Below the pieces are notes generated by a model. It was not told the DNA's origin and did not search any database. It saw nothing but the letters and a program-made list of their open reading frames with translations. From the NCBI RefSeq assembly GCF_024298845.1, contig NZ_CP101156.1:992001-1056000 (forward strand): DNA of 64,000 bases, read 5' to 3'. The position numbers and the translations under genes are program-made. Origin of the DNA: Natronosalvus amylolyticus. Lineage in GTDB: Archaea > Halobacteriota > Halobacteria > Halobacteriales > Natrialbaceae. Shown in pieces: positions 21,389-48,013 of this stretch; positions within the stretch are counted from its first letter, which is position 1, and every line of letters starts with the position of its first letter.

Positions 21389-21522
21389 GTTGTGCGAACA
21401 TTTGTTCTCACAATTAGGACTTTCCGGTTTCCATCGAACCTCACCGAGGGAATGTGATCAGGGACTCCGTATAGTCTAGGTAAAGACTATGTTACTGGGA
21501 TGATGTGATCCTGGTATCGCTA

Positions 21523-21714: not shown

Positions 21715-21717
21715 GAA

Positions 21718-25995: not shown

Positions 25996-26061
25996 CTTCA
26001 AGCCCAGTGACGAAATCCCGTTTACAGGCGGAGAAAGGTAACCCGCAATTAGGAACATCCC

Positions 26062-26400
26062 CACAGTGGCCACCTGCTTCATGTTTACATCACAGAGGGC
26101 CAACTCCGGAACCTTCCGAGTGGCCCGCCCCTCATCAAGTGGATCGACTCCATCGCTGACCATCAGACAACGAAGCAGATCGATTCACCACTTCACCATG
26201 ACCTCCGAGAACGCGCAACCCGTCTCAACATCGCATACCGGGACGACCGCCTCCTCCCGCCAAAAAACAATCGCATCCAAATCGAATCGTACCAGGTTCA
26301 GGGGCCTACAAGATTCTGAACTGGTGCAACCATCGATACCTCATCGGCGACGAAGTCTGATTCGGGAAAACCATCAAAGCCGGCATCCTCATGAGAGACA
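26062..26400 (+). pseudogene. SNF2-family helicase remnant
   Basis: The frame from 26062 reads HSGHLLHVYITEGQL... to NRIQIESYQVQG at ~26303 and then hits a stop. Shifting frame at ~26304 continues AYKILNWCNHRYLIGDEV, a TGA at 26358, then FGKTIKAGILMRD. This is the Q-motif/Walker A region of SNF2 helicases (usual form RxLIADEVGxGKTIEAG), with the glycine codon GGA turned into TGA. Everything downstream of motif I is missing, so the gene is dead and truncated. Its place right after an Eco57I-type methylase fits a former DISARM-like or helicase-assisted RM locus. Confidence 0.75.
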
Positions 26401-26403
26401 CTC

Positions 26404-26496
26404 GATGACGACGTTAACCTGAGCGCGCTTTCAATCGAACTTAGGTTAGAGTCAACCGAGTACGAGCCCGAACAATTCCCTGGCCTCATCTATCAG
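26404..26496 (+). pseudogene. TATA-binding protein (TBP) fragment
   Basis: In the frame starting at 26404 the translation contains VNLSALSIEL followed by ESTEYEPEQFPGLIYQ. This is the strand-helix region of a haloarchaeal TBP repeat, whose usual form is YEPEQFPGLVYR. The match stops at ~26496, after which the frame drifts to a stop at 26569. It abuts the helicase fragment with no spacer, so the two remnants were joined by deletion or recombination. No other TBP sequence is present in the window. Confidence 0.7.
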
Positions 26497-26975
26497 GCAT
26501 CAGTTTCTTCACATAGAGGTCAGAGTGCTTTCGATGGATGCAAGCAAAATCAATCCCGGACTGGACGCTGAATACGGTTACAGAGCCTTCTTTAGACGCT
26601 TGAACCCAGGTGATTGAGGGGTACTCAGCCGGTCAAGCATTCAGGTAAGCGGGAAAGCGATCCGAGGAACAGCTCAAAATCACTCGTGAGCCAGACTCAT
26701 CCGCGGAATGAGCGCTCTGGATATTCGGGACACCGCAGATCATTACCGCACTGACCTCAATAGAGCCTTTGAAACCTTCGGAATTTGGCATCTAAACAAG
26801 GCCTAATATTTTCAACCGACGCGATGAGTATGAGGATCTGATGATTGGGCATGAATGCGTATACCCAGACGTTGGTCGGTAGAGGCGCGCTAGCCGTTAG
26901 TGAGTGGGAATCAGAGCAAGATCGGAACTTATATTCAATTTGCCGACAATACAACCACATCCGAGGCCGTTTGCT
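26497..26975. other. Decayed spacer
   Basis: No intact gene seen. Short open pieces (for example 26521-26612 and 26708-26806, the latter MSALDIRDTADHYRTDL...) could be further gene remnants, but I cannot assign them. Probably debris of the helicase/TBP rearrangement, plus the promoter of the protease gene. Confidence 0.4.
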
Positions 26976-27623
26976 GTGACCATCACACAACGCGAAGAAG
27001 AAAACTTCCAAGCCGAGATCGGGGACTTTCACGCCCAACACTTCGAAGACCAGTGTTACCCCGCCGCCGTCAAGAATATTGTCGATAGGCTCGCAGACAG
27101 GAAAGACAAGAACGGGATGTCGATGAGTCTGAGCGATGTGAACGACGTGTGTGGGTACAAACGCGGACTCCAGTGCGAAGAGGATCTCATCCCGGAGCGT
27201 CTCACTAACGAAATCACAGAGTACGGCTACGAGACTGTTGTCGAGACAGCGCCAGAAATGAATCTTGACAAGCTCGACAACATTATCGAAGATGACAGTA
27301 CATCGCTACCGATTGTGGAACTCGATCCAACGTACTTCGATGAGGTTGCCGAGCGAGTTGACGGATACCACCCACAACCCTCAGTGGAGCGTGAGCTGGC
27401 GCATGTGGTGATTCCATACAAAGTGAATAGCGAAGAGATATTGTACTACGACCCATACGAAACATACCACAAGAAGCAGCCCGGTGTCGAAGACGCGCCG
27501 TACCGATGGCCACTCATGAACTTTGTCGAACTCTGGAGTGGTGATTACGAAGAACGCTGGACGCTCTGGCTGGCACGTCGCGGGTACGAACTAACTGACA
27601 TTGACGGGACTTCGGAGGACTAG
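26976..27623 (+). CDS. C39-like (papain-fold) cysteine protease
   Basis: A 215-residue protein from the GTG at 26976 (an ATG in frame at 26904 would give 239 residues with an unlikely N-terminus). It has the order of a C39/papain-like peptidase: a Gln-containing start, then DQCYPAAVKNIVDRL with a Cys at the head of a helix. A mid-domain follows (SLSDVNDVCGYKRG), then ELAHVVIPYKVN with the putative catalytic His, and LYYDPYETYH with Asp. There is no leader or transmembrane segment, so it is cytosolic and not a typical bacteriocin exporter protease. It sits two bases before the next gene. It may cleave a partner protein or process a peptide. The substrate is unknown. Confidence 0.65.
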   Translation: MTITQREEENFQAEIGDFHAQHFEDQCYPAAVKNIVDRLADRKDKNGMSMSLSDVNDVCGYKRGLQCEEDLIPERLTNEITEYGYETVVETAPEMNLDKLDNIIEDDSTSLPIVELDPTYFDEVAERVDGYHPQPSVERELAHVVIPYKVNSEEILYYDPYETYHKKQPGVEDAPYRWPLMNFVELWSGDYEERWTLWLARRGYELTDIDGTSED

Positions 27624-27625
27624 AT

Positions 27626-28579
27626 ATGGCGAGTACATCTACGGAGCCACGGTCGAAAATCCGGTTCGATGAGCCGGAGGACATTGAAGACGAGGTGGAA
27701 TTGAAAATCAAGCGCCGGTTCGGTCGCGGGTTATTCGTCGATAAGTACGACGTGATGGACGACGCTATAACGATCAAACTCGGGAATCAGGTTCCGAAGG
27801 ACGTCAGTGACTGTCGGGAACGCGACCGGGTGCTGAAGTTCATTACGTACAAACCGGTGTTCACGCTGAAAGCGGAAGCGACCAGGAATGGGTATCTGAT
27901 TGAGTTGCCGAATCGGAACGAGATTTACGAAGGGTTTGTTGACAGGAAGAAGATGGTGGCGAGGCAACTTGACACCACGATGGCGAAGTCCATTTACGAG
28001 GAGTTGGCCTCCTTCGGGCCGGTGCAGACGCAGTTGAGTGGTGTGAAGGATATTTTGTGGGCGGTTCGGGAGAAGCAGCCGGTTGACGAAGACGAGATTT
28101 ACGCTATGCGTGGGCGAGATAGCGTTGATCAGACGCAAATGTATCTGCACGTGCTTGAGCAGACAAAGTTCATTCGCAGGTCGGATAGTGACTTGTACAG
28201 CGACGAAAACCTGGACGCGCACGATGAGCTGGAGATTGAGTCGGATGAATTCAGTAAATTGGTACTGGGTCAGATTGTGCAGAAGGCATACCACACGCTC
28301 AAAGATGAACTGAATCTGACGCTGCTTCAGCACTACCCGAAATACGCCGGATCGTACTATTACAGCGCTTTGCAGCGAGACAAGTCGGATCTTCGGCTAG
28401 ACGTTGAAACAATCACGGACAACCTGCACACGGTGTATGGAGACGACCATGTGCACAAGTTTACCGTGGAGAAGAAACTGAACGAGCTGGCGCGAGCGAA
28501 TGTGGTGCACAAGGACGACGATCTGTTCTATGGAGATGCAGATGTGTATATGGATGTGGCCAGTCAGACCCCAGTCTGA
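27626..28579 (+). CDS. Possible winged-helix protein paired with the C39-like protease
   Basis: A 317-residue acidic protein starting two bases after the protease stop, so co-transcribed and probably functionally linked. Residues ~15-110 form a strand-rich domain (LKIKRRFGRGLFVDKYDVMDD... ITYKPVFTLKAEA). The C-terminal two thirds contain two segments that look like winged helices (~130-200, VKDILWAVREKQPVDEDEIY; ~245-310, SALQRDKSDLRLDVETI... KLNELARANVV). I do not recognise a family. It could be a DNA-binding regulator controlled by cleavage, or the protease's target. Both ideas are inferred from the pairing. Confidence 0.6.
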   Translation: MASTSTEPRSKIRFDEPEDIEDEVELKIKRRFGRGLFVDKYDVMDDAITIKLGNQVPKDVSDCRERDRVLKFITYKPVFTLKAEATRNGYLIELPNRNEIYEGFVDRKKMVARQLDTTMAKSIYEELASFGPVQTQLSGVKDILWAVREKQPVDEDEIYAMRGRDSVDQTQMYLHVLEQTKFIRRSDSDLYSDENLDAHDELEIESDEFSKLVLGQIVQKAYHTLKDELNLTLLQHYPKYAGSYYYSALQRDKSDLRLDVETITDNLHTVYGDDHVHKFTVEKKLNELARANVVHKDDDLFYGDADVYMDVASQTPV

Positions 28580-28631
28580 TTGATGAGTGAGACAATTTTT
28601 ACGTGCTGGTACTCCGTGATCACTAAAAGGT

Positions 28632-28865
28632 CTATTCAATTGGTGGCCGCAAATCGTGATGCCTGAAGTCAGCGCACGTCCCGTCTTTGAATTCAACCCG
28701 ATAGATCACGCCATCCATCTGCTCACCGGTGATCCCCCCTGCATCATCTGACAACACTTTCTTGACGTAACCATGGTTCCCGTGGTGTAACTTATGGTCT
28801 GGATCACGCTCATCAGGAATATCGATCCGGACGTAGTCTCCTTCATCGGGGCTGAAGTCCTGCAT
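28632..28865 (-). CDS. Small KOW/SH3-like protein
   Basis: A 77-residue protein with a beta-barrel-like pattern (DYVRIDIPDERDPDHKLHHG, HGYVKKVL, IYRVEFKDGTCADF). Small KOW/SH3-type folds have this form, and a role in nucleic-acid or protein binding is possible. I chose the ATG at 28865, because the seven residues before it add nothing to the fold. It is transcribed toward the protease/winged-helix pair, with 52 bases between the two stops. The family is not recognised with certainty. Confidence 0.55.
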   Translation of the reverse strand: MQDFSPDEGDYVRIDIPDERDPDHKLHHGNHGYVKKVLSDDAGGITGEQMDGVIYRVEFKDGTCADFRHHDLRPPIE

Positions 28866-29285
28866 TGTATGGCAGTCAGAAGCCAAGAGGCTTCAGTAAT
28901 TGGGTATCACAGATATCATGAGGCCCAGGGGCTATAGAGGAATAGCTACTTGTCCCCCATCCCTGTTCCCGACACCACCAATGATCCCTTGTAACTTATC
29001 GATGTCTTGTGATTCTGTAGGTTCCGTTGTCGTAAATAGCACTGATAACGGACTATATTAGTCAATTACTGAGTGCTTGGCGATATAGTCGTGCTGTCGG
29101 TCTATGCTTCATGCTGTGAATCGGAATATGGGATCCTGAGGGGTCTAAGGGCGGTTTGTCGGGTTCTCAGTCGCAAGGTTTTAAGTAAAGATTGGCGCAT
29201 ATGCCTGTCTGCGAGATGCAGCAGAATCGAACACGATTCGCACGGAAGGTTACGACAATTGCCCAACATTCAGAGTGATAGAATA
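28866..29285. other. Spacer with promoter
   Basis: About 420 bases without a credible gene. A TATA-like TTTTAAGTA at ~29178 could drive the downstream plus-strand pair, giving a leader of ~80 bases. The reading frame of the 29286 gene stays open upstream to 29073, but the extension is rich in Cys and Arg and does not look like a haloarchaeal protein. Confidence 0.4.
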
Positions 29286-29891
29286 ATGCCACTCAAAGCA
29301 ACAATTGAACACAACGGAGTTGATTACGAAATAGACCTAGACGAACTCACCAACTACGGTGATTACTATCTTACTCGTGGCCGAGACCTCATTATTCGAG
29401 CAGAGGTCTTTACCACGGGAACCAAGAACAGTCGTCACATTCGAGATCCTGTCGAAGTTGGCACTGACTACGAGATAGTCCCAGTAGTGGTTGATCGACC
29501 TAATGTCCGACAACAGATCCATGCCAAACTGGGGATCGACATCTATGACGAGGAACTAAACCGGATCGTAGAGGCCTATGAAAAGGCCGGGTGTGAAGTG
29601 CTAGAAAGCTGGACGAGTGAATTGGACGGTGACAGAATTCTCGGTAAAGAGCGGCAAGGAATCTTGTCAACGGATATAGACGACCCCTTGACGGGATGGG
29701 AGAATGACTTCGCACCTGTCGTCGATCAAGTAGCATGGGAACATGAAGAGATGACACGCCAGGAAATAGTCTCCGTCCTAACACAAGTCTCACCGGGATT
29801 GCACGAATTCAGCGCCAAAGTTGAACTGAGGAAGACACCAGAAGTGACTAGCATACTTCGCGGAAGTGAAGTTCGTACTTCCGACGCTTAA
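29286..29891 (+). CDS. Hypothetical protein
   Basis: A 201-residue acidic protein (MPLKATIEHNGVDYEIDLDE...) from the ATG at 29286, chosen because the upstream extension has non-coding composition. The N-terminal ~80 residues are strand-rich; the rest is helical (LNRIVEAYEKAGCEVLESW). I do not recognise the family. The following gene starts one base after its stop codon, so the two form an operon of unknown role inside the island. Confidence 0.6.
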   Translation: MPLKATIEHNGVDYEIDLDELTNYGDYYLTRGRDLIIRAEVFTTGTKNSRHIRDPVEVGTDYEIVPVVVDRPNVRQQIHAKLGIDIYDEELNRIVEAYEKAGCEVLESWTSELDGDRILGKERQGILSTDIDDPLTGWENDFAPVVDQVAWEHEEMTRQEIVSVLTQVSPGLHEFSAKVELRKTPEVTSILRGSEVRTSDA

Positions 29892-29892
29892 T

Positions 29893-30183
29893 ATGCAGTC
29901 ACAGCAAGGGATTCAAAGCGTGGACAGCACATTCGCCGAGAAGATCCTCAAACATAGATCTGAAAGTGGGAAACCGTTCCCTGAGAAGGTCTGCGCGTGG
30001 TTGAATCTCGACGCGGGTAGTGAAATCACGTATCAGAACGGCACGGACCAGGCGGATACGGTTCGAGAAGAACTGAATCACGATTTCAAAGAGTTAGACA
30101 CGGAGATGTTCGTCGGATCGAATTTCGTCCTGTCGTACCTCGAAAAACAAGGGGTCCGGTTCCTCACGGATCTAGAGCTCTAG
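29893..30183 (+). CDS. Hypothetical protein, second gene of pair
   Basis: A 96-residue protein with ATG at 29893, one base after the TAA of the preceding gene, hence probably translationally coupled to it. The sequence is helical and acidic (TFAEKILKHRSESGKPFPEKVCAWL... DTVREELNHDFKELD), with a C-terminal segment that could pack as a small helical bundle. No family is recognised. A two-gene module of this size could be a toxin-antitoxin-like or accessory pair, but I see no motif that proves it. Confidence 0.55.
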   Translation: MQSQQGIQSVDSTFAEKILKHRSESGKPFPEKVCAWLNLDAGSEITYQNGTDQADTVREELNHDFKELDTEMFVGSNFVLSYLEKQGVRFLTDLEL

Positions 30184-30514
30184 AGGTGGATTGAGAACGG
30201 TGACGATGTCTTCTATGACGTATTATTCTAGCTGAACACACTGTACGCGGTCACCCGAGGTAACGTCGGATCGAACATGGTACTCCGTTATTCACATGTG
30301 GTGTGCGGGGGGCCACTTCGCACGACTTGGGGCTTGGCGTTGCGTCTGGTCAATATCGATGGGATTGGTGTTCTGGTGGGAGCTTTGCGGCGTCTGAGCG
30401 AAGCGCTGGTTCTACACACGCGCAGCCCTCCACATAGATCGTCCTCTTCGTCGCCGACCGGCGAGCCGCGCGGCGTGTGAGCAAGAGCACTGAAGAAGAT
30501 AGTATCGGAAATAG
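30184..30514. other. Spacer holding left copy of a 19-base repeat
   Basis: No gene seen. The right end carries AGCCGCGCGGC-G-TGTGAGC at 30464-30482, also found on the other side of the next gene. The region is GC-rich near the repeat and has no coding frame of quality. Confidence 0.45.
30464..30482. repeat. 19-base direct repeat, left copy
   Basis: AGCCGCGCGGCGTGTGAGC here and AGCCGCGCGGCTTGTGAGC at 31422-31440 differ at one position and lie in the same orientation on either side of the wHTH/nuclease-like gene (30515-31327). The left half is a palindrome (GCCGCGCGGC). Confidence 0.6.
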
Positions 30515-31327
30515 TTACAGCTGATTGCGGATTTGACCGAAGGTGATAATACGATTGAGACCAGGAGCACTCATCGCGTCGATATGGTCTTTCTGGAGAA
30601 TGTGCATCGGGATGCGGCCAGACTCGACTCCTCGGATAGTCTCTACCGAGGGATTGACCTGAATCGAGCTACCACTTGTCAACGCTCGGAGAACTGTCCC
30701 AGCTATCTCGTGATTCCGGGTAACCCAAACTGCTTCACCCCCAGCCTCCATCAGTTGTTCGTAATCCTTCCGGATTGAGTCATAATCGTTAATCCCGACT
30801 CCGTTCCCGGTAGCGTCTGGATCCGCGCTCGTGCGGCCAGCCTCCACCTCTATCGCGGCGATTGTTTCTGTCCCTCGCCCCATAGCGACAGCGTCGATTA
30901 CGCCGCCGTTTGAGCGTGTGTACGTTTGAACGTACTGGACATCGTCTCGGCTATCGTAGTATCGGCGGGCGAGTTCCACACCAACGCGGTGTGGTGTGTG
31001 GTCTCCGAGATCACCAACTCTTGGCCCATGTTTCTGCTGCAACCGGCAAGCTTCTTGGCCATTCCTTGTTACTGAGTAATAGACGCGCCGGTTGGTTCCA
31101 ACGTGTTTTCGGACGAGGCCAGCGTTACGAAGTTTCTGTTCATTGATATCGTACAAGGATTTTATCGTCGCCGCCATTGATTGGGTCAGATCGTATCCTT
31201 CCAGTTCTCCGTTAACAGCCATGACGACCGCCCTCATGAATTTCGCCTCGTCTCGCGTAATGCCGTACTCATTGAGCCGATCGTCTGTCACTCCAACTGC
31301 AGTAACTCGTTTCACGGGGACATTCAT
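30515..31327 (-). CDS. Winged-helix protein with nuclease-like C-terminal domain
   Basis: A 270-residue protein. Residues ~15-100 look like a winged-helix domain (ITRDEAKFMRAVVMAVNG... LRNAGLVRKHVGTNRRVYYSVT). The C-terminal part has a restriction-endonuclease-like pattern: HRVGVELARRYY, then GGVIDAVAM with Asp, then IAAIEVEAGR with Glu (E-x-E in place of E-x-K). Similar wHTH plus nuclease-like proteins occur in haloarchaeal plasmids. It is leftward, flanked on both sides by a 19-base repeat, and has no close partner. A regulator or a DNA-targeting factor is possible. The nuclease fold is inferred from motif order. Confidence 0.55.
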   Translation of the reverse strand: MNVPVKRVTAVGVTDDRLNEYGITRDEAKFMRAVVMAVNGELEGYDLTQSMAATIKSLYDINEQKLRNAGLVRKHVGTNRRVYYSVTRNGQEACRLQQKHGPRVGDLGDHTPHRVGVELARRYYDSRDDVQYVQTYTRSNGGVIDAVAMGRGTETIAAIEVEAGRTSADPDATGNGVGINDYDSIRKDYEQLMEAGGEAVWVTRNHEIAGTVLRALTSGSSIQVNPSVETIRGVESGRIPMHILQKDHIDAMSAPGLNRIITFGQIRNQL

Positions 31328-31745
31328 TGCTGATTATTAGTCTATGGCGGTGGATAAGCGCTGACAAAATGGTAGCGCCTGGTCTATTGGGATTAGTCAC
31401 ACCGGTTTGTATTTCACTCAAAGCCGCGCGGCTTGTGAGCGCGACCACGTCTCTGCCGTACGATGAGGGTAAATCCCATTATACCAAACACCATTTACGG
31501 ATACTACCGTGGGGCGCATTACCCACGGCGTTCCCCTCTCACCTCCTCAAAAATCTTTAGAAGTTTTGCGAACCTCTCAGAATAAGCCAATTAATTCCCG
31601 CCCAGTATTCTACCCAGCTTTCTCCACCAAAAGGTTTCGCCCAGGGGTTCTGCACCCTTTCGCGGAGAGTAACGCATCCGGTGCGAAACTCCCTACGAAA
31701 GAGGCGAGGGCTTATGCCGGTGGTGTCGATGGTATAAAATACACA
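31328..31745. other. Promoter region, right copy of the repeat
   Basis: No gene seen. It contains the second copy of the 19-base repeat, within a 14-base palindrome AAGCCGCGCGGCTT (31421-31434). It should hold the divergent promoters of the leftward wHTH/nuclease-like gene and the rightward recombinase-like gene. Confidence 0.45.
31422..31440. repeat. 19-base direct repeat, right copy
   Basis: AGCCGCGCGGCTTGTGAGC, one mismatch from the copy at 30464-30482, same orientation. The copies bracket one gene. Confidence 0.6.
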
Positions 31746-32615
31746 ATGAGTGCAAGTACAAACAACGACAACGATGACGACGGACAGCTCTCGCTTAGCG
31801 AGGCGTTCAACGTAGCGATCGACGCCGACGAGTCGGATGGGGACGCTGAAACGATAGTTCTACTTGCATGGGGAGATGATCCCGGCGACGCAGCTTCCTC
31901 CGCTCATCGAGTAATCTGTGCGAGCCTGGCGAAGTTCGATAACGAGTTCATTAGCACCGACAAGGCATGCTCCGCGATTCGGAGCGGGTCGGTATCCGCA
32001 CCAGGAAACCTTGGTGAGGGCGCGTGCATCTGGTGGTCAGACTCGGCGGACTGGTTTGAGCTCGATGAGACAATCGACACGTGGATTGGCGACGCGACGG
32101 AGTTCGTGATAGTTGATAAGATGATCGCGCTCGGTGATAGGATCGACCGTGTCCAGGAGCGACTCAACCGTATCCTCCAGAATGGTGCGACCGTGGTTTT
32201 GGTGAACGACGACACCCGCATTACCCCAGCCGACCGGGACATCGTGTCCGCGATCTTCTCGGGACTTGACCGAGCGGGCCCGGCGCTTCAACGCGCGGCG
32301 GAACGTCGGGACATCGCTGACTGGACTGAGGGGCGACAATGGTCTGGTGGCCGCCCACCGTTCGGCTTCGAGGCAGTTGACGGGCGGCTCGTACCTGGCA
32401 ACGACTTCGACCGCATCCGTGCAATTCTCGCTGAGGCGAATGATCCGCATAGTGATATGTCGCGGCGGCGAGCGGCGTTTGAGCTAGGGACGTCTGAGCG
32501 TACGATCGGCCGCATCCTCGATGATAACAGTCGCCGCCAAAAGTATGGGCTGAGACCGACAGACTGGGACGCTGAAGAGCACTACCGAGAGCAAAGAAAT
32601 TGTAATTCCCGATAA
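31746..32615 (+). CDS. Serine-recombinase-like protein without catalytic motif
   Basis: A 289-residue protein from ATG at 31746. The C-terminal ~100 residues match small serine recombinases: GGRPPFGFEAVDGRLVPG, then a helix-turn-helix (RRRAAFELGTSERTIGRIL) ending QKYGL, close to the active recombinase at 10734 (ends LYGL). The central part keeps the resolvase outline (FVIVDKMIALGDRIDRVQERL... GATVVLVNDD). The N-terminus lacks the Tyr-Ala-Arg-Val-Ser catalytic motif, having IVLLAWGDDPGDAASS instead. It may therefore be a dead paralogue kept as a DNA-binding regulator or accessory factor. It is monocistronic. Confidence 0.6.
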   Translation: MSASTNNDNDDDGQLSLSEAFNVAIDADESDGDAETIVLLAWGDDPGDAASSAHRVICASLAKFDNEFISTDKACSAIRSGSVSAPGNLGEGACIWWSDSADWFELDETIDTWIGDATEFVIVDKMIALGDRIDRVQERLNRILQNGATVVLVNDDTRITPADRDIVSAIFSGLDRAGPALQRAAERRDIADWTEGRQWSGGRPPFGFEAVDGRLVPGNDFDRIRAILAEANDPHSDMSRRRAAFELGTSERTIGRILDDNSRRQKYGLRPTDWDAEEHYREQRNCNSR

Positions 32616-33601
32616 TCTTCTAGTTTCTCTTACTTACGGGCACTCATTGGCGACCTGTCGGTCCTGTTCGCCGTTGAACTCCTAAGCGTGCGGATAGTGT
32701 CGACACAAGGTTAACAGACAATCCACACATACCAGACTGAGTTAGGAGATGTAGAGGTCGGTGGAGATTGGGTGTGCGAAGACTGGATTGGGCGTCTCTA
32801 GGCAAGGAATTCGTTAACTCCTCTGATCACTAGAGAGATTCACCGAGAAGTTATGCAGAGAGATTCCAGACCAATGAGCCAAGATAAGGTCACGGGACCA
32901 AAATTAGGATTCACTCACGACTGTAATGTCTCGAATTAGCTGTCCGACAATCACTGTGGACGCGATGACGATCGTCACCGCGAGCACAGTACCCGAGAGG
33001 ACACCGATCAGGACCAAGATAGCTACGACGGCGGTGATGAGCGATGAGAAGTGTGGCAAGTTGCATCCGTTCGGCAGCGTTGTGCAACGCGGTGTTCATA
33101 CCATCTTGAAGCAGTGGAGTTACTAAAATCCAATCAATGCACACCAGGCCCGGGTGGTGCGCGCGCTGGTTGGCAATCTAACCAGTAGTGAATAAAGGGA
33201 AGCCGGTAGTGAAACATCAGTGGTGAAAGTGAAAGAGTTCGCCACGGGTCACGCGTCACATTAACTGCAGCGAGTGGGGTGCACGTCAGTTGACCCTAGG
33301 CAGGGTAGCGATTCTTCTACACTCCGTACGCGTAAGAGAGTTGACGATCCGGGCGCGAATCCGAGATGTGAATTTTAACGAAAAAGTTTGCTCGTGTTGA
33401 TCACAGGTGTGTGAGAGACCATATTGCAGGTGGATTTAAGTGCTCCTTCCACCAAATACGTAGACGTGCCTGGGGTGCGGGACACGATCGCTATGTTCGT
33501 TAACGAATTCAAAATCGGCCTTCGCCAACTGAATGCGGAAAGTGCCGATTCAGTAGGCTCAGTGTGCGAATATTGGTCCTTCAAGATCGCGTGCGAGAAA
33601 A
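32616..33601. other. Long spacer between island and tRNA
   Basis: About 1 kb with one candidate small membrane protein (32904-33059) and one weak frame running into the tRNA (33424-33642). I see no integrase gene and no second copy of the tRNA 3' end in the window, so the island boundary on this side is inferred from composition only. Confidence 0.4.
32904..33059 (-). CDS. Possible small hydrophobic membrane protein
   Basis: A 51-codon minus-strand frame beginning at TTG (33059) and ending at TAA (32904-32906). It encodes a strongly hydrophobic stretch (LITAVVAILVLIGVLSGTV, then LAVTIVIASTVIVGQLI) that would span the membrane once or twice, with a short acidic tail. There is no ATG in frame, so the start is doubtful, and two other frames overlap it. 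Hydrophobic periodicity is the only support. Confidence 0.3.
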   Translation of the reverse strand: MPHFSSLITAVVAILVLIGVLSGTVLAVTIVIASTVIVGQLIRDITVVSES

Positions 33602-33642
33602 TGGGTTGGGGCAGATTTGAACTGCCGACTTCCTCCGTGTGA
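33424..33642 (+). CDS. Weak frame overlapping the tRNA antisense
   Basis: A 72-codon frame whose last ~14 codons read through the antisense of the tRNA 3' half, giving the familiar artefact MGWGRFELPTSSV. The part before it (GVRDTIAMFVNEFKIGLRQL...) has acceptable composition and may be the tail of an island gene ending at the attachment site. No ATG opens it at 33424 (TTG/ATA context). Listed for completeness; it may not be a gene. Confidence 0.25.
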   Translation: MQVDLSAPSTKYVDVPGVRDTIAMFVNEFKIGLRQLNAESADSVGSVCEYWSFKIACEKMGWGRFELPTSSV

Positions 33643-33676
33643 AGGAGGTATCATAACCGGACTAGATCACCAACCC
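33602..33676 (-). tRNA. tRNA-Val (CAC)
   Basis: Read on the minus strand, the acceptor stem GGGTTGG pairs with CCAACCC. The anticodon stem CCTCC/GGAGG encloses loop TTCACAC with anticodon CAC (valine), and the T arm GGCAG/CTGCC has loop TTCAAAT. The discriminator is A and CCA is not encoded. Its 3' end faces the accessory island, the usual arrangement when elements integrate at tRNA genes. The change in base composition between the two halves falls here. Confidence 0.93.
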
Positions 33677-33751
33677 GCACGCCAATCTATCCGGGGGTTA
33701 AACTTAAGCGTTCCTTTCAGCGACGACGCCTCGAGCACCGTCGAAACAGCC

Positions 33752-33949
33752 CTACCGTCGTCCGGGCAAACTCGAGAACGCACCTCGAACGCGATCGACA
33801 CGTCCTGGCTCCGGCTCGGATTCAGATTCGCGGCCAAGTTTTGTGCGGACGGTCCGCTCGAGGGTCCGGACTGTCGATGTGAGACCACGTCGTAACTGTC
33901 TTCCAGCTTGACGAACGTGATACCAGGCATCGCTGTAGTGTGGATTCAT
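33752..33949 (-). CDS. Small haloarchaeal conserved-type protein
   Basis: A 65-residue basic-acidic helical protein, MNPHYSDAWYHVRQAGRQL... ending SSLPGRR. The start resembles a family of ~90-residue haloarchaeal proteins that open MNxHFxDAxYYxKRA and have a central GREKEPEP-like stretch (here GRESESEPEP). This copy is shorter than that family, and the frame beyond the stop remains open in the next frame, so the C-terminus may be lost by frameshift. It lies just upstream of the tRNA and marks the start of core-like, CTCGAG-rich DNA. Function unknown. Confidence 0.5.
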   Translation of the reverse strand: MNPHYSDAWYHVRQAGRQLRRGLTSTVRTLERTVRTKLGRESESEPEPGRVDRVRGAFSSLPGRR

Positions 33950-34080
33950 CGTATGATCGAACCGTATAGGCCACGAGACAATATAGCCCTTTCGCAGACA
34001 ACACAATCTCGAGCGAGATAGTCACAGTCCCTAGCAGCCGAAAAAATCACACCACACGCCTCGAGCGATCTGGCGACCGT

Positions 34081-34614
34081 TCAGTACGAGGGAGATTCTT
34101 CGATTTCGCCATCCCGCATATTCACCACGCGAGCGAGCGTAAATAGCCCATCCGAGAGCCGATTGAGATACTGGACAGCCGTCTCGTTTATCGGTTCGGT
34201 TTCGGCCAGTGCGACGCCCCGCCGTTCGGCCCGTCGACACACGGCTCTGGCGTGGTGCAATCTCGAGCCACTGTCACTCCCGGTCGGAAGAATGAACGAT
34301 CGAAGGGGCTCGAGTTCCTCGTCGTGAGCGTCGATCCACGATTCGACGGTTTCGATGTGCCCCTCGCGAACGATCGGATCGTCCTCCGATGGGTCGGGGT
34401 TGGCGAAATCGGCGAGTACGATGTGAAGATGGTTCTGGATCGCCTGAAGTTGATCATCGATATCCTCGTAGCCCGTCGGTCGAATCGAGCCGATGAGCGC
34501 GTTGAGTTCGTCGACGGTTCCATACGCTTCGATCCGCGGGCTGGTTTTCGACACGCGGCTCATATCACGAAGATCGGTCTCGCCGTCGTCACCTCGACCA
34601 GTGTAGATAGGCAT
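34081..34614 (-). CDS. pduO: ATP:cob(I)alamin adenosyltransferase (PduO type)
   Basis: A 177-residue enzyme that transfers the adenosyl group of ATP to cob(I)alamin to make coenzyme B12. The signatures are visible in order: MPIYTGRGDDGETDL at the N-terminus (ATP binding), RIEAYGTVDELNALIG, and SRLHHARAVCRRAERR with the conserved arginine helix, then YLNRLSDGLFTLARV. The length matches the family. I chose the ATG at 34614 because homologues begin MxIYTxxGD. It is monocistronic and leftward, with the upstream region starting just after the tRNA side. Haloarchaea use adenosylcobalamin for methylmalonyl-CoA mutase and ribonucleotide reductase. Confidence 0.92.
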   Translation of the reverse strand: MPIYTGRGDDGETDLRDMSRVSKTSPRIEAYGTVDELNALIGSIRPTGYEDIDDQLQAIQNHLHIVLADFANPDPSEDDPIVREGHIETVESWIDAHDEELEPLRSFILPTGSDSGSRLHHARAVCRRAERRGVALAETEPINETAVQYLNRLSDGLFTLARVVNMRDGEIEESPSY

Positions 34615-34900
34615 CGAGTTAATCGATGGCCGCGGTGTACTTAATTGTCGCTTCGAACGGCTCCACCAGGACCTCACTCGAGATGACTGCCCTGGAACCA
34701 CAGTGGATGCCTGACAGACTGCCCGACCCCTCCCAGCGGTCACCTATGGGGTGAAATCATGTGATATGACCCGTATGTGGGACCAGAAGATGTGAAAACA
34801 CTCGAGTTCATCGCAGCCCAATTGTATCTATTGCACGCTCTCTCCCAAGACGGCGGCACGATAGGCGTCTAAATCGTTCCACTAGCTCCTATACTGGTAG

Positions 34901-36007
34901 TCAGAAACTGGTTTCTGGGAGCGCAGTGGAACCCACACGCCCACGGCCGCCGGATTCGAAGACCGTTATTCGGTCTCGTGGGAGCTCGATCGTGCGTTTG
35001 TCTCCCTCTCTCGGGGGGCGTTCAGCTGTCTCTACCACGAACTCGTGGCCAGTGGCAGTCTGGACTGTCACATCGTATCGACAGCCGATATCGGCCACAG
35101 ACACGACTTCACCGGGGAGTGAAAGATCGTCGACTGTCGTTCCTGCAGGTGGCCGTAGCGATACATCCGCAGGGCGCACGTGACACGTAACGGACGTTCC
35201 CTCGGGGACGGTAACCGCTTCGTCAGAGAGGGTGAATTCTCGCTCCCCCACCCGGAGGATAGGCGGTTGCCGGGCAACAACCGTTGCCGAGAACGGGTTC
35301 GATCGACCGAGGAACGATGCCACAAACTGGGTTGGTGGTGAACGATAGAGACTTCGTGGTGTTCCGGAACCGGAGATATGACCGTCGTTCATCACGATGA
35401 GTCGATCGGCAAGCGCCATCGCCTCCTCCTGGTCGTGGGTGACGAACAGGGTTGTGACTCCGGTTTCGGCCTGAATTCGGGCAATTTCCTCACGCATTCG
35501 CTCGCGTAACTGCCTGTCCAGGGCCGATAGGGGTTCATCGAGGAGCAACACGTCTGGCTGTGGCGCGAGTGCTCGAGCGAATTCGACTCGGCGTTGCTGA
35601 CCGCCACTCAGTTCAGACGGATACGCGTCCCGTTGGTCGCTGAGATCGACCAGTTCGAGATACTGGTTCACTCGCTCAGTTCGCTGTTGCCTGTCGAGGC
35701 CACGCGCTGTGAGCCCATAGGCGACGTTCTCACTGACACGCATATGAGGGTACAGCGTCGGTTGCTGGAAGACGATCCCGACGTGGCGCTCCTCGGGTGG
35801 TTCTCCAGTTACGTCTCGGTCGCGGAGTGCTATCCGTCCTGCCGTCGGCTGGACGTGACCGGCGATCGCCTGAACGATCGTTGTCTTCCCACACCCACTG
35901 GGACCGATCAATGCGACGAGTTCGCCTTCCTCGAGTCCGAACGAGACACTATCAACGGCTAGCTCGGCACCATAGCTGTGTGTAAGCTGGTCGATCTCGA
36001 GAATCAT
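34901..36007 (-). CDS. wtpC: Tungstate/molybdate ABC transporter ATPase
   Basis: A 368-residue ABC ATPase. Walker A GPSGCGKTT is near residue 35, signature LSGGQQRR near 135, and Walker B VLLLDEPLSALD just after it, followed by the H-loop FVTHDQEEAMALAD. The C-terminal ~120 residues form a TOBE-like regulatory domain. Its start overlaps the permease stop by four bases (36004-36007), so it is the last gene of the wtpA-wtpB-wtpC operon. It powers uptake of an oxyanion. I assign tungstate/molybdate because of the WtpA-type binding protein in the same operon. Confidence 0.85.
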   Translation of the reverse strand: MILEIDQLTHSYGAELAVDSVSFGLEEGELVALIGPSGCGKTTIVQAIAGHVQPTAGRIALRDRDVTGEPPEERHVGIVFQQPTLYPHMRVSENVAYGLTARGLDRQQRTERVNQYLELVDLSDQRDAYPSELSGGQQRRVEFARALAPQPDVLLLDEPLSALDRQLRERMREEIARIQAETGVTTLFVTHDQEEAMALADRLIVMNDGHISGSGTPRSLYRSPPTQFVASFLGRSNPFSATVVARQPPILRVGEREFTLSDEAVTVPEGTSVTCHVRPADVSLRPPAGTTVDDLSLPGEVVSVADIGCRYDVTVQTATGHEFVVETAERPPREGDKRTIELPRDRITVFESGGRGRVGSTALPETSF

Positions 36008-36822
36008 CGTTCGACCACCGTCGGTACACGGCCGAATCGTTGCACTATCGCGAGAACAGCGAGCGTAATCCCGAGCAGTGCGAGTGCAAGCGGTGCGATC
36101 GAATCGATACCACCCGCGATAAAGTCAACCCAGATGCGAGTCGGCATCGTCCGTGGGTTGTACGCAACCATCATCGTCGCACCGAACTCACCGATCGCTC
36201 GAGCAAACGTCAGAATAATACCTGCGACGATTGACCCTCGAGCGAGCGGCAGTGAAACGTTCCAGAACGTGGAGAGCGGACCGTACCCGAGCGAGCGAGA
36301 CGCCTGCTCTAACCGTTCTTCGACCGCACCAAACCCGGCACGGGCGGTAATAATCACGAAAGGAGCAGCGACAAACGTCTGGGCGAGGATGACACCGATT
36401 AAACTGTCAGTGAGTGAAATACCGACAGCCGCGGCGGCAGCACCTATCGGGGTAAACCGGCCGACAGCAGTGAGGATCATTGCACCACCGACGACCGGTG
36501 GGACGATAAGCGGCAAGATCACGAGCGCTTCAACGAATCGTTTTCCGACGAATGACCGTCGAGCCAGGACGTACGCGAGCGGGACGCCGAAAACGGTGGC
36601 GATCGCCGTCGAAACTGGGGCTGTCAAGAGAGAGTTTCGAATCGCCACCTGCGATTCGGGTGTGGATAACCCCGCGACGAGGTTTGCCGTGTCAGTTCGA
36701 GCGATAAATGCGACGAACGGGATTGCAAAGTAGACGAGGATGAGTGCACCGAGGAGCGCGGGGACGAGCAGCTCTGGCAACCGTTTTGACCGCTGCCTCG
36801 GAGAAAGGTTTGCGAGACTCAT
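36004..36822 (-). CDS. wtpB: Tungstate/molybdate ABC transporter permease
   Basis: A 272-residue integral membrane protein with about six hydrophobic segments (for example LVPALLGALILVYFAIPFVAF, ALVILPLIVPPVVGGAMIL, ALALLGITLAVLAIV). It has the EAA-type cytoplasmic loop of binding-protein-dependent permeases (EQASRSLGYGPLSTFWNVSLP...). Both ends overlap its operon neighbours by four bases: with the binding protein at 36819-36822 and the ATPase at 36004-36007. Together they form a three-gene importer. Specificity is inferred from the binding protein. Confidence 0.85.
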   Translation of the reverse strand: MSLANLSPRQRSKRLPELLVPALLGALILVYFAIPFVAFIARTDTANLVAGLSTPESQVAIRNSLLTAPVSTAIATVFGVPLAYVLARRSFVGKRFVEALVILPLIVPPVVGGAMILTAVGRFTPIGAAAAAVGISLTDSLIGVILAQTFVAAPFVIITARAGFGAVEERLEQASRSLGYGPLSTFWNVSLPLARGSIVAGIILTFARAIGEFGATMMVAYNPRTMPTRIWVDFIAGGIDSIAPLALALLGITLAVLAIVQRFGRVPTVVER

Positions 36823-37769
36823 ACAGTGATCCCACCCGGAACGTCACCTTCCAAACGAGGTACGCTATCTTCTACCGACAGCCCGGCCTCGACCAGCAAG
36901 TCGGTCTCATCGATGAGAAACTGAACGAGGTCGTGTCCGGCTTCGGACGCGTCCGCTTCGTCGTTCACCGTTGCGTTGTACAACACTGGACGCCCTATTG
37001 CAGTGTATCCTTCTTCGTCCGTCGTGAACTCGACAGTCCCATAGTGGTCTGCCAACGCGGGTACTGCAAAGTTGTACTCGTCGGGAAACTCGAAGAAGGG
37101 CATGTCGTGATCGATCGCCATATTCCGGTATACTATGGCTGCTGCCCGCGACCCGGTTTCTACCCCGGCCATCATCTGCGGTTCGTCCGGCTCCTCGTAA
37201 ACGAGGCCCATCATTTTGTCCCGGAATCCGTCAAGATCGTACTCGTTTTCAGCCAGCTCGAACGCCTGCACAGCCCGGTACCCAAGGGGATCGAGATCTG
37301 GATCTCCGATCGATATGTCGCCCTCGTTCGACTCGAGCGCCAGTTCGTACCAGGGTTCACCGTCCTCGAGGCCCCGTCCAAACTCCGTCAGTTCGTTGTA
37401 TCCGATACCGACACTATTCGTTGCAAAGACGACGTCCCAGTGGGTGAAATCACCGTACAGTCGGTCTCGCAGAAGCGTTGCGTCGGCGCTGACAATGACG
37501 TCGGGGTGTTTCGTCCGGTCTTCGACCATTCGCATCACTGCATTAGCCCCATAATACTCTCCATGGATCTGGATACCGGTTTCCTCCTCGAACGCTGGTC
37601 CGATGTGGTCTTCGAACGTACGTGCGAGACTGCCGGCTGACAAAACATGTACCGAACTAGAACTAGCTCCCAAACAGCCCGCAAGCGTGGTACCGAGGAC
37701 ACCACCAACCCTGACCAGAGCGCTACGGCGACTCACCGCCCGCTGGTTGTGAGAGCCACGAAGAGACAT
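36819..37769 (-). CDS. wtpA: Tungstate/molybdate-binding lipoprotein (WtpA type)
   Basis: A 316-residue extracellular binding protein. The N-terminus has twin arginines (SRRSALVRVGG) and a lipobox LAGC, so it is probably exported by Tat and lipid-anchored. The mature part has SAGSLARTFEDHIGPAFEEE, DVIVSADATLL and the WtpA hallmark GDPDLDPLGYRAVQAFELAE. WtpA proteins bind tungstate and molybdate as octahedral complexes. It is the first gene of the operon. A TATATA box at ~37793-37800 lies 24-31 bases upstream, suggesting a leaderless transcript. The family also includes other oxyanion binders, so the exact ligand is inferred. Confidence 0.85.
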   Translation of the reverse strand: MSLRGSHNQRAVSRRSALVRVGGVLGTTLAGCLGASSSSVHVLSAGSLARTFEDHIGPAFEEETGIQIHGEYYGANAVMRMVEDRTKHPDVIVSADATLLRDRLYGDFTHWDVVFATNSVGIGYNELTEFGRGLEDGEPWYELALESNEGDISIGDPDLDPLGYRAVQAFELAENEYDLDGFRDKMMGLVYEEPDEPQMMAGVETGSRAAAIVYRNMAIDHDMPFFEFPDEYNFAVPALADHYGTVEFTTDEEGYTAIGRPVLYNATVNDEADASEAGHDLVQFLIDETDLLVEAGLSVEDSVPRLEGDVPGGITV

Positions 37770-37792
37770 ATGAGTCAGTCATATTCCCACAC

Positions 37793-37800
37793 ATATATAA
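37793..37800 (-). promoter_or_regulatory. TATA box of wtpABC operon
   Basis: TTATATAT on the minus strand, centred about 28 bases before the wtpA ATG (37769), the spacing expected for a leaderless archaeal transcript. Confidence 0.6.
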
Positions 37801-37915
37801 CCGCCTCCAGTTCCTAAACCGTAGTAATGTAACCAATAGTGCCTTCATTTGGGAGTGAATAATGGGTCACGAAACTGAAAAAGTAATCATCACCACACGG
37901 GAGAAACAGAGTAAC

Positions 37916-37997
37916 CTGTAGAGCCAGTGAAAGTCTTCGCACACCCTCCCCGAAGACTTCGCGGCTGTAGGTGTGTAAATCGTTTCACTGACTACAG
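37916..37997. mobile_element. MITE-like element, copy 1
   Basis: An ~82-base element with imperfect terminal inverted repeats (CTGTAGAGCCAGTGAAA and, inverted, TTTCACTGACTACAG) and an inner hairpin AGTCTTCG/CGAAGACT. It aligns over its full length, about 75% identical in the 67-base inner part, with the reverse complement of the element at 62977-63060. No coding capacity. The family appears to be mobilised in trans. Confidence 0.7.
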
Positions 37998-38000
37998 TAG

Positions 38001-38400
38001 TACTCTCCCAAACGTCGACGTGTGAGCCATACCTCTCGATCGGCTCAACCGGTAGGTCTGGAAAGCCACTAGAGTGAAGGATTACTCAAACCAAAGACGT
38101 CTCGGTTGTCTGCGCGTGGATCTGGTAGGACGCTGGATTTCGATGAAAGAACACTCGAAAAACAGTTTGCACCGATAGTTACCATCGAAAACCATTGCAG
38201 GTGATGTTGCAAGATAGCACCGCAATAGGCGTGATAAACGAATGCGCTCGACGATCCCGTGGCTCTGAGGACCAACCGTTACCCCGATATCCGCCCACGC
38301 ACAATTAATGAAGCGACATGGAGTTTATCACACTCCAAATCAGGCAGTTTCGAGCACCAAAATCAGTACGTTAAACTCGCTCGGTCCGTAATCACCCGAT
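38001..38400. other. Spacer upstream of the zinc-ribbon gene
   Basis: About 400 bases with no gene of quality; overlapping frames are shadows. It should hold the promoter of the small gene at 38401. Confidence 0.4.
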
Positions 38401-38562
38401 ATGTCGATGGAACTCGAGGCAACTTGTCCAGACTGTGGCGAACAGACGTTTTACCGTGCGGCCAGCACGACTCTCCATCTGGGAGAGAAAGTCAAGTGGC
38501 ACTGCCCGAGCTGTGATTACGGCTTCGTGAAAATCAACGGTATCGACTCGAGTGCCGTTTAA
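38401..38562 (+). CDS. Small zinc-ribbon protein
   Basis: A 53-residue protein, too short for most gene callers, with two C-x-x-C knuckles (TCPDCG and HCPSCD) separated by ~25 residues. This is the classical zinc ribbon found in many tiny haloarchaeal proteins. The spacing and the strands between the knuckles (TFYRAASTTLHLGEKVKW) fit. It begins MSMELEATC and ends at TAA (38560-38562). Such proteins probably bind nucleic acids or partner proteins. The function of this one is unknown. Confidence 0.8.
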   Translation: MSMELEATCPDCGEQTFYRAASTTLHLGEKVKWHCPSCDYGFVKINGIDSSAV

Positions 38563-39377
38563 CCAGTCTTCTCGAACGAGATACGTTCTCACCTGGCGGG
38601 CACAAAATCACAGCGTTCAGGGAGGGTGTGTTGTGCACGATACCCCCTGGGGTAACATCATGACTCTTCGGTTCCAGCGATAGGAACTGACGATTTGCTC
38701 GAGCGTTGTGCAGTGACTCATGAGGATTCATGCCCATAGCCATAGGAATTATCGGAGGAGTTCATCGTTACCGACGAAGAATCGAGGCAAAGCGTCGACA
38801 GCCGTCCTTCAAAAACTCCGACTGGTTACGATAATCCCTATCAGAGCACACTCAATGTGCGATAAGCCTCTGTCGTAGTCTCTTGCATGCCCTCTATGAC
38901 ACAGTCCTCGAAATCTAACATCGATCGACTGGTGAAGTTCCGGGTCCGTACCAGGCCGTGAAATCAAATAGTTTGCCTCGATTGTACGCTGATCCACGGG
39001 TAGAGAGGGCACGTCGTCCTCTCATAGAATCGCTGTAGTTGCGTACCGATCAGCGACCACTTCGATTCATTGCTGGCCGGTAAACGGTTACAGTGCTCTC
39101 CACCGACTGTTATCCAGTTGCACGAAAGAACGCAACGGAGACTCCTCTAGCAGAGACTTCGAGCCGCGGGATGGTCTCCGAGACCGACCAGCAGCCAATA
39201 GATAAACCAAATATTGCAATATGAAATTAGCCGAAGCACAGACCGTCTGAACCAGTGCTCCCGCTATTCGGTACTACTCGAAAAAGAGGTCTGGCGTTAT
39301 ACTAGATCGTCGAAATATCGAGACACTCGAGCGATCCCGTCACCGATCGAGTGTCACAAGACGTCCACGAATCGCTA
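38563..39377. other. Intergenic, no gene seen
   Basis: About 815 bases with only fragmentary frames. A small hairpin TACCCC-CT-GGGGTA (38641-38654) may be a terminator for the zinc-ribbon gene. The right end is the 3' region of gcvPB. Confidence 0.4.
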
Positions 39378-40847
39378 TTACTCCTCGTCGAGGGCGTGCC
39401 AGGAGAGTCGCGGATTTCGCGCCGCACTCGTCTGGTCGATCCGACCGGCAGCGGTCCGACTGGGTGCGGTCTCGAGGGTTTCCGCGTCGGACGCACTCGC
39501 GCGTCTGAACGCCGAAGCCAACAGGTCGAGCGTTTCCTTGCTCTCGACCTCGGTTGGCTCGGTCATGAGTGCCTCCGAAACGATTTCGGGCCACTTGGTC
39601 GTGGGCGGATGGACACCGAAATCGAGCATCCGTTTTGCGACGTCAGCCGCGTCTTGCTCACCGGCACTGGCGACGAACTCGTGATGGAACGGACCGTACG
39701 GAACCTCATAGTCGATTTGGCTCGCGAGATAGTTCGCGTTGAGCACGGCTTTCGCACTGGCATCGAGCAATCCTTCGTCACCCAACCGCGCAATGTACGC
39801 GAAGGCTTTGATCAATACGAGCCAGTTGCCCTGATAGCCGTGGACGTGACCGATGGTCCGCTCCGGGTCGAACAGTTCATATTCGTTCTCAACTTCACGA
39901 ACGCGTGGCGCTGGCAAGAACGGTGCGAGTTCGTCGACGACCCCCACCGGGCCGGCCCCTGGGCCACCACCGCCGTGTGGGGTCGCAAACGTTTTGTGGA
40001 CGTTGTAGTGCATCACGTCGAAGCCCATATCACCGGGCCGAGCGCGGCCAAGGAGAGCGTTGAGGTTCGCTCCATCGTAGTACAACAGACCACCGACATC
40101 GTGGACCATTTCGGCGATTTCAGTGATGTCGCGTTCGAACAACCCGAGCGTGTTCGGATTTGTCAACATCAACGCCGCCGTCTGTTCTGAAAGGGCCGCC
40201 TCGAGCGCCTCGAGATCGACTCGACCTTCGTCGTTACTGGGCAGCGATACGACGTTGTAGCCACCGAGGGCCGCGGTCGCAAAGTTGGTCCCGTGGGCGC
40301 TTTCGGGAATAATGACTTCGTCACGATGGCCTTCGTCGTTGTGTTCGTGATACGCGTTGGCGACACGAATCCCGACGAATTCGCCGGCAGCGCCGGCAGG
40401 TGGTTGGAGCGTCACCGCATCCATCCCCCCGATCTGTGCAAGATAGCCCTGCAGTCGGTAGAGCAACTCGAGGGTTCCCTGAATCGTTTCAGGTGAGCGG
40501 CCCGGATGGACGGCACCCGACTCGAGGGCCGCAACGTCTTCGGTAAACTTCGGATTGTACTTCATGGTACACGACCCGAGCGGATAGGGGCCGGTATCGA
40601 TGCCGTAGATCATCTGAGAGAGACGCGTATAGTGGCGAGCGAGTTCGGGTTCAGAAAGCCCCGGCAACTCGAGTGTATCGCGCGTTAGGTCGGCGGGAAG
40701 CGGCGACTCATCGTCGTCGATGGTCACACGAGTGCTATCCTTCTCTGCAAGCAACGGTTCGTACTTCCCGTTCCGAACGTAGCGTGCTTGCTCGTAGTAG
40801 GCGTCTTCGACACCGGACTTCTCCGTGTCGGACACGTTATCGCTCAT
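39378..40847 (-). CDS. gcvPB: Glycine dehydrogenase (decarboxylating) subunit 2
   Basis: A 489-residue PLP enzyme, the second half of the two-subunit P-protein of the glycine cleavage system. It decarboxylates glycine and passes the aminomethyl group to the lipoyl arm of GcvH. It has the N-terminal [25 protein letters not shown], the PLP loop ANAYHEHND..., and the PLP-lysine motif [18 protein letters not shown] (Lys ~284). Length is normal. Its ATG overlaps the stop of gcvPA by four bases (40844-40847), so the two subunits are translationally coupled. gcvT and gcvH lie ~12 kb away on the other strand. Confidence 0.95.
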
Positions 40848-42181
40848 TGTGTCACCTCGCTAATCGCGGCGACGAACCCACCAATATCTGCCTCCGTTAC
40901 ACCCGAGATGCAACACTGGATGTGATCGTCGTCGAGGACGTGAACCGCGTACCCGCGTTCCTCGAGTGCTCGAGCAATCGCTCTGGCACTGTCGTCAACG
41001 TGGGCAACGAACTCACGGAAATGCCGGCGGTCATTAGCCGGCGCTGTAATACCGTCTAACTCATTGAGCCGTTCGGCGAGCGACTCCGCTCGTACGACAT
41101 CACGTTTTGCCAGGTCGACCAGTCCATCCGGACCGAGCATCGCTGCGTGCATCGCCGTTCGAAGGGCAACCCACGCCTGATTCGTACAGATATTACTCGT
41201 CGCGCGTTCGCGTCTGATGTGTTGTTCACGCGTCTGGAGCGTCAGCGTGAACGCACGGCGATCCTGGTCGTCTTCGCTGACGCCGACGAGTCGGCCAGGT
41301 ACCTGACGTAGGTACGATTCGCGCGTCGCAAACAGCCCGAGTCCCATGCCGTAACTGGTGGGTAACCCCAGCACGCTAGCGTCACCGACGACAACATCGG
41401 CACCGACGTCGACCGGTCGCTGCAACAGCGACAGTGCAATCGGATCGGAGCCAAGCACGAACAGGGCATCCGACGACGAAGCGAGAGAGCCAACCTCGGA
41501 GAGGTTTGGTTCGATCGAACCCGACACCGTCGGGTTCTCGGCATACAACATCACGACATCCTCGTCGATCTGTCGCTCGAGGTCGACCAGATCGACGGTT
41601 CCCTCCCACGTCGGATACGTTTCTACTTCGAGGTCCGTTCCAGCGACGTAGTTCTCGAGGGTGCTCCGGCGACCCTCGAGAATCGTGTCGGGGACCAGGA
41701 CGCGATGTCCGGAGGTTTCTCGAACACGTTCTGCGAGCGTCGCTGCCTCGCCGAGTGCCGTTGCCGCGTCGTACATCGAACAGTTCGCTATCTCGAGTCC
41801 CGTTAGCTCGACCAGCAGCGACTGATACTCGAATAGCGCCTGCAAGAACCCCTGTGACGTCTCGGGCTGGTACTGCGTGTACGACGTCAGATACTCCGAC
41901 CGGTCGGCGAGGTGATCGACCAGTGACGGGACGTAGTAACCGTAGTGACCCCGTCCCAGCAACTCCACCAGCGATTCGTTTTTCTCGAGCGTTCGCCGGA
42001 CCAGCGCTCGCGTTTCGCGCTCGCTCCGGGCAGGGATACCGAACTCGTCGTCGAACCAGACCCCCTCCGGAATGTCAAAGAGGTCGTCGACCGAGTCGGC
42101 ACCGATTGCCTCGAGCATCGCCGCCGTATCGTCGTCCGTGTGAGGAGCGTACGGACTCCCCGAAGTACGTGTTCCGTGCAT
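40844..42181 (-). CDS. gcvPA: Glycine dehydrogenase (decarboxylating) subunit 1
   Basis: A 445-residue partner of GcvPB. Typical segments are [52 protein letters not shown] and [15 protein letters not shown], which form the conserved N-subunit core. I placed the start at ATG 42181 because the family begins MHG-like directly before the disordered acidic start. An ATG 42 bases upstream would add an unlikely CGGDG segment. It is the first gene of the gcvPA-gcvPB operon. The complex supplies one-carbon units and NADH from glycine. Confidence 0.93.
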
Positions 42182-42378
42182 GGCTTGTGATTGAAAAGTT
42201 CCCGGCCCGTCCCCGCCACACAACCCTCGCCACTGGTCGGCCGCGGGTTTCGTTCCGAGACACGTTACTAGCTGCTTAGGAGCACGGGGTTAAGAACGCA
42301 CCTCTTTTCGAGCGAGCGGTCGCAACTGAACCGTAGCGCTCGTACAGACTTATCCGCCGGAAAATAGGTTGTTGCCGA

Positions 42379-43716: not shown

Positions 43717-43786
43717 AGTACTGTTACTCGAGTCAGACTACAAGATATTGTCGTTCGGGATTTCGACGGTTGACGAAAAGAATGGG

Positions 43787-46162: not shown

Positions 46163-46259
46163 AGATTGAGATTGTTCTGCTACGGTATATGAGTGTTGGC
46201 TCGAGCGAACAGGTCACCAAAACGACAAGCTCAGTTCGAGACACCAGGGAGGAGACAGC

Positions 46260-47974: not shown

Positions 47975-48013
47975 ACCGGATGGTGATGGCCAGTCCCCGA
48001 AAAGTCACCGACT

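Follow-up and report, generated by a model that had tools for sequence, protein, structure and literature searches.

A 50.7-kb island free of CTCGAG at a tRNA-Val gene of Natronosalvus amylolyticus, and the abundance of this palindrome in the family of its host

Why does a hexamer that is frequent on one side of a tRNA gene vanish on the other? The window analyzed here is a stretch of 64,000 nucleotides (G000:C1:992001–1056000) of the Natronosalvus amylolyticus genome, which comprises 4.22 Mb in five contigs. A tRNA-Val gene with anticodon CAC was located by ARAGORN at 33602..33676 on the minus strand, so that its 3′ end (33602) points left. The palindrome CTCGAG is absent from the 33.6 kb left of this gene and occurs 123 times in the 30.3 kb of chromosomal flank to its right (33730..63865); under an even distribution across the window, the probability that all 123 would fall on the right is about 1e-40. 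A preliminary description of the window had remarked on this contrast and on the 3′ end of the tRNA facing the poor side. Both observations hold, although the leftmost site right of the tRNA lies at 33730 rather than 33728, and the word is plainly not equally common on the two sides. GC content falls from about 0.58 in the chromosome to about 0.52 left of the tRNA. Over 144 kb of chromosome, the largest gap without CTCGAG (974607–1025730) measures 51,123 bp, and the runner-up 2,056 bp.

The same description had proposed that an integrated island ends on the right at the tRNA gene and had advised a search left of base 1 for a duplicate of the tRNA 3′ end. When the same genome was searched with the tRNA region, the 24 bp at the tRNA 3′ end (33602..33625 of the window; C1:1025602) were found as an exact second copy at C1:974936–974959, which is 50.67 kb away; base 1 of the window lies 17,065 bp to its right. 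CTCGAG resumes just past this copy, and the gap overshoots the two copies by only 329 bp on the left and 105 bp on the right. A direct repeat of the tRNA 3′ end, one of the criteria for a mobile element, is thus present at both ends. The boundary in the window is very probably the attR of an integrated element of 50.7 kb (C1:974936–1025625), inserted at tRNA-Val(CAC) of a Natrialbaceae-type haloarchaeon by an integrase of the SNJ2 family. The right two thirds of this island fill positions 1..33601. The earlier statement that neither an integrase nor a second copy of the tRNA end is visible is true of the window but not of the DNA beyond it, where both lie 14–17 kb left of base 1. Similarly, the left edge, which had been thought to be outside or lost, is outside the window (attL is 17 kb left of base 1) and has not been lost.

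A tyrosine integrase (PF00589, PF02899) is encoded just inside attL, at approximately 3166–4146 of locus L005. Aligned with the integrases of SNJ2 and Halorubrum persicum, it retains the catalytic residues R155, K187, H273xxR276, and Y308. Its identity to the SNJ2 integrase is about 35–37% (34.8% over 99% in one comparison), and its best named viral relatives are those of HRPV-9 (36%) and SNJ2 (35% over 99%). By the published definition of the SNJ2-type family (PMC8371274), a member is 30% or more identical to the integrase of SNJ2 over 60% of the protein, and the island integrase falls within this definition. In H. persicum, 278 bp upstream of a homologue with 67% identity, there is a tRNA end that resembles an att site. 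In the viral_contigs collection, no relatives of the integrase or of the PrimPol protein described below were found. The integrase would have recombined a 24-bp attP core of the element with the 3′ end of tRNA-Val(CAC), an event that would leave the tRNA whole at the right end of the insert and a 24-bp duplicate, attL, at the left end, next to the integrase gene within the insert. The tRNA gene is indeed intact. Directly observed are the two att copies, the catalytic residues of the integrase, the uninterrupted attB in relatives, the gene content, and the exact fit of the CTCGAG gap. More than one insertion may have contributed to the island, which would then be a mosaic.

The neighborhood of the tRNA gene was compared in relatives, as had also been suggested. 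In most genomes of the family, tRNA-Val(CAC) adjoins a cob(I)alamin adenosyltransferase gene, which in the window lies in the right chromosomal flank (34081..34743, minus strand). The sequence flanking attL directly abuts tRNA-Val as an undisrupted attB, most clearly in genomes G011 and G023, where the match to the left flank is one-sided and only about 90 bp long. A similar downstream hairpin region is present in G006, G007, and G036. In the stretches of relatives examined, the genes of the left flank are not adjacent to tRNA-Val, and none of these stretches contains a complete empty site with both gene flanks. The left-flank genes are found at 97% identity in G004, the nearest relative, which has a different element at the site, with an att copy (one mismatch) beside an integrase of 35% identity. 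In G001 and G008 the site has a pair of att copies, separated by 1.9 and 3.1 kb, and between or beside them lie integrases of 43% and 30% identity; G002 has a degenerate att-plus-integrase element. tRNA-Val(CAC) is an integration hot spot.

Two further features of these comparisons concern G004. The first 333 bp rightward from its tRNA (L039:1319–1651) are 99.7% identical to the N. amylolyticus genome and the DNA farther out about 90%; this stretch is a recombination or replacement tract beside the tRNA, past which G004 has different DNA. A piece of about 170 bp in the left flank (L005:1000–1400; query 1190–1360) has dozens of copies in G004 and is a dispersed repeat.

In our reading, the island resembles an integrative plasmid and its cargo is mostly defence-like, with putative defence functions taken from family names only. 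Left of the window, the integrase is followed by an AAA ATPase, proteins of 710 and 363 aa, a 2153-aa TmtA-like protein (HATPase; E 2e-298), three small proteins, and an IS transposase. Within the window, the leftmost feature is a hypothetical protein (841..1362, minus), whose relative on plasmid contig C4, also of N. amylolyticus, is 50% identical. Next comes a 1488-aa NTPase with an AAA_22/NACHT-like P-loop (2068..6534, plus), a candidate STAND-type defence protein with a weak Avs1b-like match. It is followed by a 408-aa protein that matches phrog_26326, a PHROG family without known function (7206..8432, minus; E 9e-71), and a serine recombinase/resolvase (10449..11468, plus; PF00239). A 1312-aa replication protein (13432..17370, plus) combines a Prim-Pol domain (PF09250, over the Pfam cut-off) with an AAA/DUF927-like helicase part; partially related proteins are encoded by a Natronococcus occultus plasmid and by Halorubrum virus CGphi46. 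The element probably replicates, or once replicated, by means of this PrimPol-helicase, and it carries candidate defence genes. Beyond lie a CDC48/IetA-like AAA+ ATPase (18447..19955, minus), a D12-class N6-adenine DNA methyltransferase (20345..21388, minus), a 1425-aa Eco57I/MmeI/PglX/DrmMI-like methyltransferase that is possibly a type IIG restriction-modification enzyme (21718..25995, plus), and a PadR-like regulator (30515..31327, minus), the last a weak match below the family cut-off.

The closest known counterparts are the SNJ2-type integrative elements (Betapleolipovirus SNJ2, HRPV-9, Humcor2, and Halfgib1), with which the island shares the family of its tyrosine integrase, integration at a tRNA 3′ end, and an integrase gene beside the att site (PMC7911831, PMC8371274). 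It differs from them in being three times larger and in carrying defence-like cargo and the PrimPol-helicase. Viral structural genes were not recognized among the proteins scanned; for the spike, membrane protein, and NTPase genes of pleolipoviruses, neither Pfam nor PHROGs gave a match in a scan that took in only some of the small ORFs. With archaeal defence islands and integrative plasmids at tRNA genes, the island has in common its AAA ATPases, TmtA-like HATPase, STAND-like NTPase, and methyltransferases. Unlike the DISARM and BREX systems, its DrmMI/PglX-like gene stands without partners among the annotated neighbors, in which PADLOC matched no helicase, phosphatase, or DUF1998 protein, and no complete named defence system was demonstrated among the annotated island genes.

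The contrast at the tRNA has two causes that the preliminary description missed: avoidance of CTCGAG in the island and hyperabundance of the word throughout the family of the host. Genome-wide, CTCGAG occurs 17,566 times (4.2/kb), as against 560 copies of the reversed word GAGCTC. It is the commonest hexamer in the flanks of the island, where 93 kb contain 390 copies and 100 are expected, and in the host the words one letter off it do not exceed their expected numbers. Relative to G004 (91.6% identity), 84% of CTCGAG sites are conserved, compared with 65% for words of the same composition and 72% for words containing TCGA. At least 2 copies per kb are found in 99 of the 125 genomes of the host family (median 3.3) and in none of 181 Halobacteria outside it (median 0.24, maximum 1.6); low-CTCGAG genera inside the family are g9, g11, g6, and g10. 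We take this family (f1) to be Natrialbaceae because the best megaplasmid match is to Haloterrigena turkmenica and because named Natrialbaceae plasmids show the same enrichment (1.3 to 3.5 times expectation). The Natrinema viruses SNJ1 (55 copies, 18 expected) and SNJ2 (53 copies, 12 expected) are strongly enriched, so that SNJ2 differs from the island in this respect too, and Natrialba virus phiCh1 is moderately so (69 copies in its first 30 kb, 40 expected). Among the other contigs of the same genome, C3 and C5 are rich in CTCGAG, while C2 and C4 vary along their length and in part contain only the expected number.

These properties recall HIP1 (GCGATCGC) of cyanobacteria, likewise a hyperabundant palindrome of a whole lineage that is as common in coding as in noncoding DNA and has been lost in exceptional lineages (PMC4390886). 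As in the HIP-type definition, the excess of CTCGAG is genome-wide, goes beyond codon use, and extends over coding and noncoding sequence. CTCGAG differs in being archaeal, six bases long, and present at about 4/kb instead of about 1/kb. Natrialbaceae probably possess an archaeal counterpart of HIP1: CTCGAG at approximately 3–4.5/kb in most members, on the chromosome as well as on megaplasmids and in resident viruses, better conserved than expected and associated with no single methyltransferase family, such that its absence would mark recently acquired DNA genome-wide. A literature search, thin on subscription papers, returned no account of CTCGAG abundance in Natrialbaceae. In the chromosome of N. 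amylolyticus, GAGCTC, CGATCG, and GGCGCC are under expectation, which suggests past or present restriction in the lineage.

The host excess may be kept up by a process acting on the DNA itself, either biased repair or selection, and the spread of the word into viruses and megaplasmids fits either. Elhai's model would ascribe it to a HIP1-type effect of a methyltransferase specific for CTCGAG. In cyanobacteria, the occurrence of HIP words follows that of cognate methyltransferases (PMC4390886). Methylation of CTCGAG is known from Halobacterium sp. NMX12-1 (PMC11556058), and Nocardia has an orphan methyltransferase for this word (PMC4752239). In the genomes compared here, however, the presence of PF00145, PF01555, PF02384, or PF07669 does not separate high from low genomes, and G023 (4.1/kb) has neither an Eco57I nor a C5 methylase and, of PF01555, apparently just two near-universal members. 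Thus, in contrast to HIP1, no methyltransferase shared by CTCGAG-rich genomes was found by presence in these four C5 and N6/N4 families, which were compared at the level of the family rather than the orthologue. We regard the methyltransferase explanation as possible but doubtful.

In the island the situation is reversed. An order-2 Markov model predicts about 22 copies of CTCGAG in its 50.6 kb, 23 of TCGCGA, and 21 of GTCGAC; the whole island contains 0, 0, and 4, respectively. GGCGCC is also missing, but this was discarded as evidence of avoidance because the word is equally rare in the host flanks (9 copies in 93 kb, none between 970 and 1030 kb). Restriction of mobile DNA usually leaves word avoidance of this kind, and the pattern is as expected for recent arrival from hosts that restrict CTCGAG, TCGCGA, and GTCGAC. 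Type II restriction in hosts that the element occupied earlier most likely purged it of these three words, and the time since its arrival may have been too short for CTCGAG to build up. Nucleases of the XhoI type (PF04555) are rare, being encoded in 3 of 61 genomes of the order. The halovirus Hardycor1 also lacks CTCGAG (PMC7911831).

A 9.1-kb piece of the island that carries the TmtA-like gene and its neighbors is 88% identical to DNA of G068, a genome from a different haloarchaeal family (L110:~1390–10480). To judge from this similarity, the piece represents a recent transfer between families. The match in G068 sits in a stretch of 54–55% GC within a chromosome of 68–71% GC. This stretch has 5 copies of CTCGAG where about 35 are expected and 1 of TCGCGA where about 36 are expected, and the sampled G068 chromosome is at normal levels. 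The same avoidance in both places implies that the signature travels with the gene pool. These data bear on the alternative that the present host removed CTCGAG from the island, by its own restriction or by counter-selection on foreign DNA. The island does encode two DNA methyltransferases, one of them the possible type IIG enzyme. The host genome, however, itself contains its 17,566 copies of the word, the host plasmid contigs and the family viruses SNJ1, SNJ2, and phiCh1 are at or above expectation, and the same avoidance recurs in the G068 stretch that shares island cargo. We therefore consider a role of the present host unlikely.

Codon usage was evaluated on both sides of the boundary. 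In the host, 480 of 600 coding sites of CTCGAG are in frame 0, as they would be if the excess were a by-product of a preference for the codon pair CTC GAG (Leu-Glu). Nevertheless, over 173 kb the excess relative to synonymous shuffles is greater in the other two frames (6.6- and 7.3-fold) than in frame 0 (2.5-fold), the intergenic density (4.56/kb) equals that of coding DNA (4.34/kb), and GAGCTC is rare. A by-product of this kind is very improbable, and as the sole cause it is ruled out by the frame excesses and the intergenic density. When the synonymous codons of island coding DNA were shuffled, 16.1 ± 3.0 copies of CTCGAG were predicted and 0 observed, with 12.6 and 0 for TCGCGA and 17.2 and 2 for GTCGAC. 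The control palindromes CGATCG, GACGTC, TTCGAA, and ATCGAT were normal by the same procedure, and one-off words of CTCGAG in the island are near expectation, except for CTCGCG and CGCGAG, which are somewhat low. The absence of CTCGAG is therefore real avoidance and not due to low GC alone. That the boundary merely reflects how the chromosome and a set of low-GC genes differ in codon usage or GC, without any insertion, accords with the drop in GC but is scarcely credible given a gap bounded by two exact tRNA ends and an integrase, which rule it out, an avoidance specific to the word, and shuffles that preserve codon use yet predict 16 copies.

By itself, the island is ordinary, a further mobile element borne by a tRNA gene, whose two ends can now be given to the nucleotide. 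It is outweighed by the family-wide palindrome, which has several times the density of HIP1 and is common to the viruses of the family. How such words build up and are maintained is an old question, pursued previously, as far as we found, in cyanobacteria only. Natrialbaceae are culturable, and several have phages, so the cause of the CTCGAG excess can be tested in them. Stretches free of CTCGAG also offer a simple practical marker of recently arrived DNA.

Genomes G016 and G017 had appeared to avoid CTCGAG, and this was rejected: the outlying count stemmed from a stretch next to tRNA-Val that resembles an island, and their chromosomes are just mildly low. The 20 kb beside tRNA-Val in G016 (L049; G016:C1:800001–820000) contain 0 copies of CTCGAG, 2 of TCGCGA, and 2 of CGATCG, where 17, 18, and 32 are expected. 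In its word counts this stretch is unlike the remaining G016 chromosome, and it is probably a further island that avoids a combination of words of its own.
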